A stretch of 64,000 bases of DNA from Saprospiraceae bacterium (GTDB lineage: Bacteria > Bacteroidota > Bacteroidia > Chitinophagales > Saprospiraceae): positions 186,001 to 250,000 of the forward strand of contig JABAQQ010000014.1 of assembly GCA_019187225.1 (NCBI GenBank). Reading direction: 5' to 3'. A program made the position numbers and the translations under genes. Under the pieces are notes generated by a model that was given only the letters and a program-made list of their open reading frames with translations, was not told where the DNA came from and ran no database searches. Below, one piece after another: positions 14,794-18,765 of this stretch; position 1 is the stretch's first letter; each line of letters opens with the position of its first letter.

Positions 14794-14801
14794 TACCTTT
14801 G
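14794..14801 (+). promoter_or_regulatory. -7 box of the initiator tRNA gene
   Basis: TACCTTTG matches TAnnTTTG and ends 12 bases before tRNA position 1. A TTG at 14769-14771 is a possible -33 element. Confidence 0.65.
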
Positions 14802-14813
14802 CACCCGCTAAAT

Positions 14814-15295
14814 CGCGGAGTGGAGCAGTTGGTAGCTCGTCGGGCTCAATACTGTAAAATTAAAGCGGTTGATGAACACTAAACTAAAAGGAGACATCGC
14901 AGAACAAGCAGTTGTTCTGCAAGCACTGCGGCAAGGATGTGTTCATTAATTACGGCAGCGAAATACACTTAGTCGAAGCCGACAAGCGTCAACGGAAGCC
15001 AAATTCAGCGGCTTTCAGAAATGCTTGGGATTTAATTTTGCAAAGGGCTGTTCCGAAAGTAATTTCGGAATGAATATCTGTCAAATTCGGGGAAGCCTGT
15101 AGTGTGGTAATCCCGAGCCAAGTCCCGAAGAAATTCGGGGAAGGTGTAGAGACTTAATGGCAGACATCCTAATTCTGCAAAGAAAGGATGAAGAGAAAGT
15201 CCAGACCAGCAAACCCCGAAGGTTCGGGGGCAGCGAAAGTTGCAGTGGTATGCATAACCCGAAGGTCGTAGGTTCAAGTCCTGCCTCCGCCACCA
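14814..15295 (+). tRNA. initiator tRNA-Met (CAU), interrupted by a group I intron
   Basis: Exon 1 is 14814-14846 (positions 1-33) and exon 2 is 15253-15295 (positions 34-76, CCA encoded). Joined, they give a 76-nt cloverleaf with anticodon CAU. Initiator hallmarks are a mismatched first pair (C1 with C72), three consecutive G-C pairs at the base of the anticodon stem (GGG/CCC) and an A11-U24 pair. All arms pair once the 406-nt insert is removed. It is therefore functional only if the intron is spliced. A terminator follows directly. Confidence 0.95.
14847..15252 (+). other. group I intron (probably subgroup IC3) in the initiator tRNA anticodon loop
   Basis: The insert follows U33 and ends in G (15252), obeying the group I rule of a U before the 5' splice site and a terminal omega-G. 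The core is readable: P-like AATTCGGGGAAGCC (15084-15097), Q-like AATCCCGAGCCAAG (15109-15122), R-like GTGTAGAGACTTAA (15144-15157) and S-like AAGAGAAAGTCCAGACC (15191-15207). P7 pairs 15151-15155 with 15197-15201 and P8 pairs CATCCT with AGGATG (15164-15169, 15185-15190). GNRA-capped hairpins are at 15051-15070 (GTAA loop) and 15124-15139 (GAAA loop), and a CAGC-GAAA-GTTG hairpin lies near 15231-15242. No homing endonuclease frame is inside. A candidate P1 partner near 14867-14872 is only weakly supported. Confidence 0.93.
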
Positions 15296-15296
15296 C

Positions 15297-15331
15297 AAAA
15301 GCCCCTGACTGTTGCAGTCGGGGGCTTTTTT
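15297..15331 (+). terminator. rho-independent terminator of the initiator tRNA gene
   Basis: Stem of about 14 bp (15297-15310 with 15316-15329, one G-T wobble), 5-nt loop, and a run of T. It begins one base after the encoded CCA. Confidence 0.85.
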
Positions 15332-17064: not shown

Positions 17065-17272
17065 ACTGTTCAAAAGTATGTGTAGACGATGTTCAAAAAT
17101 CTGTGTCAATAACAATTTTTGTTACTGAAAATCAACGACTTGAAAATTTTTGACACAGATTTTCAAGAAAACTCTATGTGTAAAATTTACAAAATTAAAA
17201 TATTCAAGCAGCTTATAATCATCTCTTTAAATAACTAAACAACGAACAAAAACACAATATTTTGAACAGTCC
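17063..17272. mobile_element. 210-bp MITE-like element with 13-bp terminal inverted repeats
   Basis: Perfect 13-bp terminal inverted repeats (GGACTGTTCAAAA at 17063-17075 and its complement at 17260-17272). An inner inverted repeat of about 14 bp (AAAATCTGTGTCAA and its complement) lies near 17096-17110 and 17147-17160. No open frame for a transposase. The AT-rich body contrasts with the GC-rich repeats on both sides, so the element appears to have entered or split a simple repeat. The terminal sequence resembles ends of insertion sequences seen in Bacteroidota, but the family is not certain. Confidence 0.7.
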
Positions 17273-17298
17273 TCTGTGGGCAGTGGGCAATTGCGGTG

Positions 17299-17430
17299 CC
17301 CACTGCCACTGCCACTGCTACTGCCACTGCTACTGCTACTGCTACTGCCACTGCTACTGCCACTGCTACTGCTACTGCCACTGCTACTGCCACTGCCACT
17401 GCCACTGCCACTGCCACTGCCCACTGCCCA
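17299..17430. repeat. hexanucleotide tandem repeat CYACTG, about 20 copies
   Basis: Uninterrupted CCACTG/CTACTG units, flanked by CCCACTGCC variants. It ends 7 bases before the stop codon of the outer membrane protein gene (minus strand). Long open frames across it (Ala-Thr, Gly-Ser or Val-Ala repeats) are low-complexity artefacts. Confidence 0.9.
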
Positions 17431-17436
17431 CCGCTG

Positions 17437-18765
17437 TTACTCAAACCGGCGTTTATAGAACCACGAATTATCGTTCAGCGTGAAGCCGACGGTAATGCGA
17501 AAATACGTTTCTTCGATGGTCGTATTGGCGCCGAAACGGCCTAGTTCGAACGCCGCGTTGACAAAAGAAGTTTGCTGACGCGGCAGGATGACCGGGAGCC
17601 CGAAGCCGAAGGATATACCAACATCGTCCAGCCCTTTCCCGTTGACGAGGCGCGGATCCTGGCGGTAGTAGGCGCCCAGCCGGTAGCGGATACGCTTACC
17701 GTAGTTGTTGTAGGAAGCGAAATCGGGGATGTATTCCACACCCGCTGAAACGGAACTTGTGTTGCGCATCTCTTCCGGGCGCGCTTCGTTGCGATAAGCC
17801 GACCATGCGCCATAATCGAACTGCGCACCAAGTTTCAGTTTGGATGTCCTGACATATTGAATGCCAATCCCAAAGGTAGCTGGCAGGGTGATCGTCCGGG
17901 AGACGTCGAGTGCAGATTGAAGCGTGTCGGCATCAATGTAGTTTCCATTGGAAGATATGCCGCGACTGCGGATAAAAAGCACGTCGTTGATGACGTCGAG
18001 GTTGTGTTGTCCTTCGCCGGTAATGCCGACGGTGATCCATCGCAACGGAATTGATTTGTCATTCTCAAGGGATTTCAACACAAAATCGTGTTGAAATCCG
18101 GCATTCCATACAAAGCCGTTCGTCCGCAGATCCTCGCGCCGGTTGGTTTGGAAAGTCGGAAAGCTGTCAACAAAATTGGTAGTGGCAGAATAGACGGACT
18201 TACCGAATACCCATCCGAGGTTGAGTCCCAATGCAGTGTGTTTGTGTTTGACCGCTCCGCTCCAGTTAAAACGATAAGTACCACCCGAACCCTCGAACGA
18301 ATTTTCCACTTCCCCCAGCCCGTCCAGGTTTTCGTCCGTTAGGATATTGTAACCCACAAGGGTGTAGGGCGTCAGGGAGAAGCCCATGCCGTAATTCCAG
18401 GGCGATTTGATTTTGTCCAACACTTCGTTGATCGGGCTTTTCAGGGTAAAGCCGAGCGCGAGATAGGCGAGGTTGCCGCTCCAGAAGCTGGCTTCAGAAT
18501 TATTGGTGGAGAGATTGCTGTATTTGGCGTACAATCCCGTTTCCAAAGAGGTGGAACGGAGGTACGCGTAGGATGCCGGATTGACCAGGTTGAGGTGAAA
18601 CGGGTCGTTAAATGCCACCGTTTGCCCGCCCCATCCGACCTGGTTGGCGAAAAATTGGTTCAGGCGGTCGCCGATCCCGTATTTGGAATAGGGAGAGTTC
18701 TGTTTCGGTTGCGCCAAAAGGGCAAGACTGGTCAACAGAATCGAAAAAATCAGAAGAAATCTCAT
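17437..18765 (-). CDS. outer membrane beta-barrel protein
   Basis: A 442-residue exported protein. The ATG at 18765 opens a signal peptide ending LALLAQ. The rest has alternating amphipathic strands (YGMGFSLTPYTLVGYNI, RYRLGAYYRQDPRLVN, GISFGFGLPVILP) and ends in an aromatic residue-rich C-terminus, as in FadL/OmpP1-like Bacteroidota barrels. It lies 23 bp downstream of coaX on the same strand; this pairing is common in the phylum, but the substrate is unknown. Confidence 0.78.
   Translation of the reverse strand: MRFLLIFSILLTSLALLAQPKQNSPYSKYGIGDRLNQFFANQVGWGGQTVAFNDPFHLNLVNPASYAYLRSTSLETGLYAKYSNLSTNNSEASFWSGNLAYLALGFTLKSPINEVLDKIKSPWNYGMGFSLTPYTLVGYNILTDENLDGLGEVENSFEGSGGTYRFNWSGAVKHKHTALGLNLGWVFGKSVYSATTNFVDSFPTFQTNRREDLRTNGFVWNAGFQHDFVLKSLENDKSIPLRWITVGITGEGQHNLDVINDVLFIRSRGISSNGNYIDADTLQSALDVSRTITLPATFGIGIQYVRTSKLKLGAQFDYGAWSAYRNEARPEEMRNTSSVSAGVEYIPDFASYNNYGKRIRYRLGAYYRQDPRLVNGKGLDDVGISFGFGLPVILPRQQTSFVNAAFELGRFGANTTIEETYFRITVGFTLNDNSWFYKRRFE

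Follow-up and report, generated by a model that had tools for sequence, protein, structure and literature searches.

A group I intron with the remains of a homing endonuclease gene interrupts the only initiator tRNA gene found in a Saprospiraceae draft genome

Introduction

How does a bacterium supply itself with initiator tRNA when the only gene found for this tRNA is cut in two? The question is raised by positions 14814-15295 of the window (the whole 64,000-nucleotide stretch of Saprospiraceae DNA that was analysed), where the gene for the initiator tRNA-fMet is interrupted by a 406-nt group I intron. The intron is a member of the known Synechocystis tRNA-fMet intron family. We consider it very probable that an essential initiator gene here carries a self-splicing intron of the Synechocystis/I-Ssp6803I family, which was acquired by homing and whose endonuclease has since died; splicing in the cell, homing activity and the order of events are read from sequence comparison.

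The split initiator tRNA gene

The preliminary description of this DNA recognized an initiator tRNA-Met in two exons that lie 406 nt apart and placed the junction after U33. ARAGORN, with introns allowed, reads the same gene as a tRNA-Met(cat) with a 406-nt intron and a break at loop position 34. A standard tRNA search of the window without introns allowed finds no tRNA, which illustrates that routine annotation can miss split tRNA genes. The locus consists of the following elements.

14794..14801, + strand: promoter-like -7 element of the TAnnTTTG type, TACCTTTG (read from the sequence; a type outside the sigma-70 scan)
14814..14846, + strand: 5' exon of tRNA-fMet, C1 to U33 (ARAGORN with introns, join rules, BLAST at 100% over query positions 1-35)
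14847..15252, + strand: group I intron, 406 nt, between U33 and C34, last base G (RF00028, ARAGORN i(34,406), covariation)
15253..15295, + strand: 3' exon of tRNA-fMet, C34 to the encoded CCA (BLAST, ARAGORN, join rules)
15297..15329, + strand: intrinsic terminator, a 15-bp stem followed by a T run (terminator search)

The sequence alone permits the join to shift by 1-2 bases rightward because CA starts both the intron and the 3' exon. Group I rules, by which U ends the 5' exon and G ends the intron, fix the join at U33/C34 and uphold the junction first proposed; in the relative L142, the intron starts with U and the ambiguity is thus absent. The promoter-like element TACCTTTG lies 12 nt upstream of the tRNA and also occurs upstream of the split genes of two congeners, L171 (G031) and L172 (G455). 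We take TAnnTTTG to be the Bacteroidota promoter consensus. With its promoter-like element, terminator, both exons and ribozyme core all intact, the locus gives no impression of being a dead copy.

Ribozyme anatomy and covariation

Does the insert have the structure of a ribozyme? The preliminary description named it a group I intron and suggested a covariance model as the check. Rfam RF00028 matches positions 15006-15220 with 69.2 bits (E 1.8e-15; cut-off 50), and this match together with the conserved columns lies far beyond chance. tRNA group I introns are usually placed in subgroup IC3. The following elements, all on the + strand, are recognized in the window intron.

14853..14864, + strand: 5' arm of the P1 extension, 12 bp with 15031-15042, with the endonuclease relic in the loop (within- versus between-intron stem comparison)
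15031..15042, + strand: 3' arm of the P1 extension (within- versus between-intron stem comparison, 81 introns)
15045..15050, + strand: internal guide sequence GGGCUG, which pairs with exon GGCU, U33 (U14846) lying opposite G15046 (GGGC pattern)
15051..15070, + strand: P2 hairpin with a GUAA loop (8 of 8 pairs with double-sided changes, 66 sequences)
15077..15164, + strand: P3, 15077-15083 with 15158-15164 (RF00028, alignment, covariation)
15087..15092 with 15111..15116, + strand: P4, inside P3 (RF00028, alignment, covariation)
within 15077..15164, + strand: P5 and P6, inside P3 (RF00028, alignment, covariation)
15123..15129 with 15134..15140, + strand: P6a, inside P3 (RF00028, alignment, covariation)
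15151..15201, + strand: P7 pseudoknot, the guanosine-binding helix, 15151-15155 with 15197-15201 (covariation)
15165..15170 with 15185..15190, + strand: P8 (covariation)
15205..15252, + strand: P9 (15205-15208 with 15246-15249), P9.1, P9.2 with a GAAA loop, and the terminal G at 15252 (alignment and covariation, P9.1 left out)

The terminal G (G15252), the complementary strands of P7 and of P8 and the GNRA-capped hairpins (GUAA in P2, GAAA in P6a and in P9.2) agree with the features first reported for this intron. The U14846-G15046 pair, the terminal G15252 and the guide sequence are all present, as in group I introns; the 5'-exon U and the terminal G chose the join and hence are not independent support, and the guide is independent. 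A GGGC at P2, shortly 5' of P3, is found in 81 of 81 introns (GGGC pattern at most 70 nt before P3; two overlapping choices in L153). The base before the guide is A in 15 of the 81 introns, that is, in the window intron and 14 others, and U in 61, so the P10 helix would be weaker in the window intron. The Synechocystis salina intron (L163) likewise has no U before the guide. Within the same 81 introns, the longest stem of the P1 extension averages 7.8 bp, versus 5.6 bp (sd 0.14) for stems formed between halves taken from different introns.

Covariation was counted in 66 tRNA-fMet intron cores, from the guide to the last G, on the structure drawn on the window sequence (P2, P3, P4, P5, P6, P6a, P7, P8, P9 and P9.2); P9.1 was excluded because its alignment is ragged. 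L088 and L089, which share their contigs with L061 and L067, are left out of the guide and core counts. A row was dropped when it shared at least 90% identity with one already included, which reduced the 81 introns to 67; L093, with its short core, was omitted from the core alignment, and both L093 and L120 were omitted from the core tree. Standard pairs occupy 95.7% of 3234 cells, versus 29.0-42.5% in slid-partner controls, and 34 of the 49 pairs show a double-sided change. Double-change cells number 451 versus 120.7 in shuffles, a value reached in 0 of 500 shuffles, with a significance that is overstated because the structure was taken from one row and the rows are related; further pair types number 89 versus 71.9. 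Such a variety of pair types is hard to get without a real structure. The P3-P9 core characteristic of group I introns, including the P7 pseudoknot, is supported by covariation, with P9 as its weakest helix (84.5% paired). Four pairs of P7 are invariant in 66 of 66 cores, and the fifth changes from U-A to G-C, A-U or C-G in 22.

We propose that, in the pre-tRNA, the intron folds into a ribozyme whose guide GGGC (15045-15048) would pair with the 3' portion of the 5' exon, with U33 and G forming a wobble pair at the cleavage site. The P7-bound guanosine would attack after U33, and the freed exon would in turn attack after G15252, joining U33 to C34 to yield a normal initiator tRNA.

Search for another initiator tRNA

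The cell would depend on this splicing reaction unless a second intact gene exists, as the preliminary description pointed out. The genome is a draft of 7,183,558 bases in 73 contigs (completeness 100, contamination 1.84). A genome-wide search with a covariance model, BLAST, a sequence pattern and ARAGORN found no intact initiator tRNA in this 7.18-Mb draft, whose 73 contigs leave gaps in which a second initiator gene could lie. The tRNA covariance model gave 50 matches at E <=10, of which 44 exceed the cut-off. ARAGORN was applied to 30 loci and to 15 stretches that cover the other matches; the one remaining place is the window's own 3' exon. Three CAU tRNAs were read, one of them (L045) below the cut-off, and all three are without the GGG:CCC anticodon stem of initiators. 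At L043, L044, L046 and L047, ARAGORN read no tRNA; L043 lies above the model cut-off. BLAST with the spliced tRNA returned only the two halves at 100%, followed by a 77% piece at a tRNA-Asn.

Could the intron have decayed beyond splicing, leaving a pseudogene while another initiator tRNA serves the cell? We regard this as highly improbable. The broken endonuclease inside the intron and the draft state of the assembly would suit such a scenario, but neither the covariance model nor BLAST nor the pattern revealed another initiator tRNA, and the exons are undamaged and match the uninterrupted genes of eleven congeners exactly: the spliced tRNA of the window equals the G013 gene in 76 of 76 bases and the genes of ten others in 74 of 74. 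Moreover, 92 of the 93 columns in which at least 90% of 66 relatives agree are retained in the window's ribozyme core, and the sole departing column changes the P2 loop from GAAA to GUAA. A splicing intron in a working gene is thus the reading that we retain; with no intact reserve gene found, translation start very probably depends on a parasitic ribozyme.

The same genome contains a second group I intron that the preliminary description overlooked. It measures 236 nt and lies in the only tRNA-Leu(UAA) gene seen (L002, G000:C2:142997-143206). Group I introns of tRNA-Leu(UAA) are known from cyanobacteria and plastids. At a separate locus (L034, G000:C3:351569-351902), between tRNA-Ser(GCT) and tRNA-Pro(TGG), there are four tandem, near-identical tRNA-like genes whose anticodon loop has eight bases (CCAU); they resemble tRNA-Pro copies with an altered anticodon arm. 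Elsewhere in the window, a short repeat tract at 17227-17483 would encode runs of Gly-Ser, Ala-Val or Ala-Thr dipeptides, depending on which of several frames is read.

Endonuclease relic in the P1 loop

The P1 loop of the window intron holds a further feature missing from the preliminary description, namely two out-of-frame pieces of the Pfam family PDDEXK_5 (PF11645), the I-Ssp6803I family, each of which scores individually under the PF11645 gathering score.

14872..14940, + strand: N-terminal relic, PD-(D/E)XK homing endonuclease residues 1-23 (PF11645 positions 1-23, E 6.6e-4)
14936..15070, + strand: C-terminal relic, residues 105-149, in a different frame, with the stop at 15071-15073 (PF11645 positions 105-137, E 2.9e-4)

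The frame of the N-terminal relic stops after 25 codons, and its sequence is 83% identical to residues 1-23 of P0002. The C-terminal relic is 82% identical to P0002 (E 5.9e-18), and its 3' end overlaps the guide sequence and P2. The relic retains the Synechocystis-type arrangement of a PD-(D/E)XK endonuclease gene that lies in P1 and overlaps P1/P2, with the gene itself broken. An intact I-Ssp6803I-type ORF is absent from the window, where residues 24-104 are missing and the frame is shifted, and present in the congener introns L061 and L067. The window intron is 245 nt shorter than both of these full-length introns, a difference not divisible by three. D36, Q49 and K51, which are invariant, all fall within the missing part; we take these three to be the catalytic residues.

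How old is the loss? The 3' end of the endonuclease gene must be kept because its last codons encode the guide and P2. Compared with the G032 gene, the relic differs at 4 of 45 bases in this RNA part, at 20 of 93 in the preceding C-terminal part and at 18 of 69 in the N-terminal part. For both pieces outside the RNA part, dN/dS relative to this sister gene is ~0.07 (dS 1.7). Given this low ratio and the well-conserved C-terminal relic, the loss of the endonuclease looks recent, or the remaining piece may have some residual function. Five Bacteroidota pairs of stop-free endonucleases give dN/dS values of 0.11-0.17, with dS >1 in four of them: 0.15 for G024-G032 (L088, L089), 0.11-0.13 for three other Saprospiraceae pairs and 0.17 for one. 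The eight pairs computed also include two that are undefined because dS is saturated, and L172-L091 at 0.067 with a dS of 3.8.

We propose that the intron arrived by endonuclease-driven homing into an intron-less gene and that the endonuclease gene in the P1 loop later lost ~245 nt and died. The ribozyme, the guide and P2 would stay intact because the initiator gene is essential. The window intron would thus represent a stage after the death of the homing enzyme at which the ribozyme is intact.

Empty, loaded, stopped and deleted states in the genus

In a set of 42 genomes from the genus, the initiator tRNA is in one piece in 31, split in five (the window's own genome G000, G024, G031, G032 and G455) and cut by contig ends in one (G001); the other five gave no match. 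Apart from the eleven intact congener genes identical to the window's spliced tRNA, the other 20 are 92-99% identical to it.

G024 and G032 (L061, L067) show the loaded state: a full 149-codon endonuclease gene occupies the same loop. The encoded proteins match PF11645 with E values of 3.1e-48 and 2.3e-48 and PDB 2ost with an E value of 2.4e-60. The 2ost entry describes a putative endonuclease, and we take it to be I-Ssp6803I. The cores of these two introns are 85% identical to that of the window intron with gaps counted and 89% over 201 columns, form one clade with it (SH-aLRT 95) and share a matching P1 extension, whereas the two introns differ from it in their length of 651 nt and their complete endonuclease gene.

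The introns of G031 and G455 (L171, L172) occupy the same site in the same genus, but their cores lie elsewhere in the tree. In the 384-nt G031 intron, the endonuclease is likewise internally deleted, from about codon 9, with deletion ends unlike those in the window. The G455 gene is full length and has one premature in-frame stop; a second stop near its end also occurs in G031 and probably marks the regular terminus of the gene. In addition, an intact tRNA of 86% identity is present in G455, on a small contig whose sequence looks foreign. Two separate intron arrivals in the genus are hinted at by the tree, but we do not adopt them, since a single clade is not rejected (p-AU 0.383, from a quick tree with the group chosen after tree inspection).

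Could splicing instead be a control point, at which folding or the GTP level sets the supply of initiator tRNA and translation initiation? This idea draws on the retention of a ribozyme in the sole initiator gene detected and of another in the sole tRNA-Leu(UAA) gene detected. The scattered presence of the intron, in 5 of 42 genus genomes, argues against it, no extra regulatory domain was noticed in passing, and need by itself would lead one to expect purifying selection on the ribozyme; we therefore judge the control-point idea very unlikely and retain the reading of a homing-acquired intron that the cell must splice.

Other elements were observed in the genus. In L173 (G007:C1) and L174 (G457:C68), a small gene that is GIY-YIG-like by eye lies 3' of an intact tRNA-fMet and is followed by a repeated tRNA 3' end. 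These two loci look like another endonuclease element that exploits the same tRNA gene, and similar tRNA fragments occur in G016, G029 and G033. G032 also has a 682-nt group I intron (L060, G032:C4:32779-33073) whose ORF is HNH-type endonuclease-like by eye; it resides in what is probably a CAU tRNA, split after the anticodon and labelled Gln(CTG) by ARAGORN.

Distribution of the intron and its endonuclease

How widely is the U33/C34 site used? A scan with one genome per species yielded 136 endonuclease relatives, and 80 of the 136 were examined. At 75 of these 80 loci, the endonuclease gene is in or beside a tRNA-fMet that is split at U33/C34 under rules requiring a 5' exon that ends in U, an intron that ends in G and a 3' exon that starts with CAU; at each of the 75, only a single join gives a tRNA that ARAGORN reads as tRNA-Met(cat). 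Under the same rules, 83 of 91 loci including the window have the U33/C34 insertion, or 81 of 89 without the repeat contigs L088 and L089, which are the same contigs as L061 and L067 and are counted in 83/91 and 75/80. The start of the intron usually repeats the 3' exon, with CA in 65 and CG in 15 of 81 introns. Of 83 endonuclease loci, namely the 80 just mentioned and the viral L168-L170, eight have no joined tRNA. In L107 and L149 the contig breaks off within the intron, and the other six (L100, L138, L148 and L168-L170) are without a split tRNA; L100 has not even a tRNA fragment before the gene. ARAGORN labels such as Leu(caa), Ser(cga) and Ala(cgc) were rejected as misreadings, as the U33/C34 join gives tRNA-Met(cat), and where it gives Gln(ctg), the gene is probably a CAU tRNA with its break after the anticodon, a reading made by eye and for L060 alone. 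At L138 and L148, only a stretch like a tRNA 3' fragment precedes the endonuclease gene, as if the two had moved together.

The 75 loci come from records named for 17 phyla, with 4 of the 75 lacking a phylum and with phylum labels of MAGs that may be wrong. In the Acidobacteriota MAG contig L120, the endonuclease has exactly the sequence seen in the congener G455, probably owing to a binning error. Scans for every kind of group I intron were positive in 17 of 395 genomes of the class, six of which have the tRNA-fMet intron, and in 9 of 60 nearer relatives, the own genome being included both times; these scans use stricter filters that lose weak matches, and the G031 intron was missed among the 60. 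On the intron tree, the clade of the window intron and two congeners (95) falls inside a 16-row set (SH-aLRT 97) that comprises 15 Bacteroidota or window's-class genomes and one Desulfococcaceae record. A recent cyanobacterial donor is thus unsupported, as the window intron groups with congeners in this mainly Bacteroidota set. The preliminary description knew of no such intron from this part of the Bacteroidota. The Bacteroidota member itself stands, but tRNA-fMet introns are widespread at this site, Bacteroidota included, and the novelty is therefore smaller than first thought.

The endonuclease gene is inside the P1 loop at 44 of the 75 loci and outside the intron at 31, of which 30 have it downstream of the tRNA (26 at 51-136 nt and 4 at 237-1186 nt) and one has it upstream. 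Switches between inside and outside number at least 5 on the endonuclease tree and at least 10 on the intron tree, both being quick trees with open forks at 49 of 83 and 33 of 78 inner branches, respectively. If the gene moves between the P1 loop and the flank, the intron would often be carried by an enzyme encoded outside it. In the viral contigs L168, L169 and L170, an I-Ssp6803I-type gene stands free between phage tRNAs, and the next tRNA after the gene is a tRNA-Met, 2, 4 and 36 nt on; such free-standing genes are a possible source of the intron's enzyme. Plasmids gave no endonuclease match, and known phages gave 17 matching records, all below 60% identity and none covering 80% of the query.

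These arrangements raise the possibility that the shortened window intron can still move with the help of an endonuclease encoded elsewhere, by collaborative homing as in phages. Trans-acting phage enzymes move ORF-less or defunct introns, according to PMC3984707; endonuclease-less introns with the gene outside make up the 31 loci just described, mostly with the gene shortly beyond the tRNA; and congeners with an intact tRNA-fMet would be potential targets. However, P0002 as a query against the whole genome matched the tRNA-fMet locus alone, with no second endonuclease copy, and we consider continued mobility of this particular intron unlikely. An intron that is spliced and stranded by the death of its own enzyme is the reading that we prefer.

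More tentatively, and as a possibility that we would rate somewhat short of even, the initiator tRNA may be a bacteria-wide homing site at which the endonuclease shuttles between P1 loop and flank, with collaborative homing on chromosomes and with the whole cycle displayed in one genus. If so, one endonuclease and one intron family would have met repeatedly at U33/C34, and phages would hold free copies beside tRNA-Met. The genus would show the cycle as empty, loaded, stopped and deleted in two ways, with the ribozyme locked in an essential single gene. Since every stage is present in one genus, the homing cycle would be testable in bacteria by ordinary methods.

Comparison with known systems

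Which parts of this system are new? No report of tRNA group I introns in Bacteroidota/Bacteroidetes was found in the open-access literature by title or beginning of abstract, and none of a flanking endonuclease beside bacterial tRNA genes among the literature matches listed, judged by the listing. A tRNAscan-SE survey (PMC8450103) invokes group I introns to account for 36 bacterial genomes in which an fMet or Ile2 gene is missing. The Synechocystis intron and its enzyme are already published (PMC1995217, PMC3073962). The window intron is a well-supported member of this known family. It stands out by its dead endonuclease, in the sole initiator gene detected, and the distribution and gene arrangement of the family go beyond what the literature found describes.

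The tRNA-Leu(UAA) introns, including L002, resemble the window intron as group I ribozymes in an anticodon loop but belong to another tRNA, and L002 is 236 nt long. The closest known system is the tRNA-fMet intron of Synechocystis sp. PCC 6803 with I-Ssp6803I. The host gene is the same, the join is that of its kin Synechocystis salina (L163, 655 nt), and the congeners' enzyme is 63% identical to the 2ost chain. The endonuclease gene likewise lies in P1 and runs into P2, and in Synechocystis it overlaps P1/P2 by 61 nt, as given in PMC3073962. In contrast to the PCC 6803 intron, whose length is given as 655 nt in PMC1995217, the window intron measures 406 nt, resides in a Saprospiraceae host and retains its endonuclease as two out-of-frame pieces.
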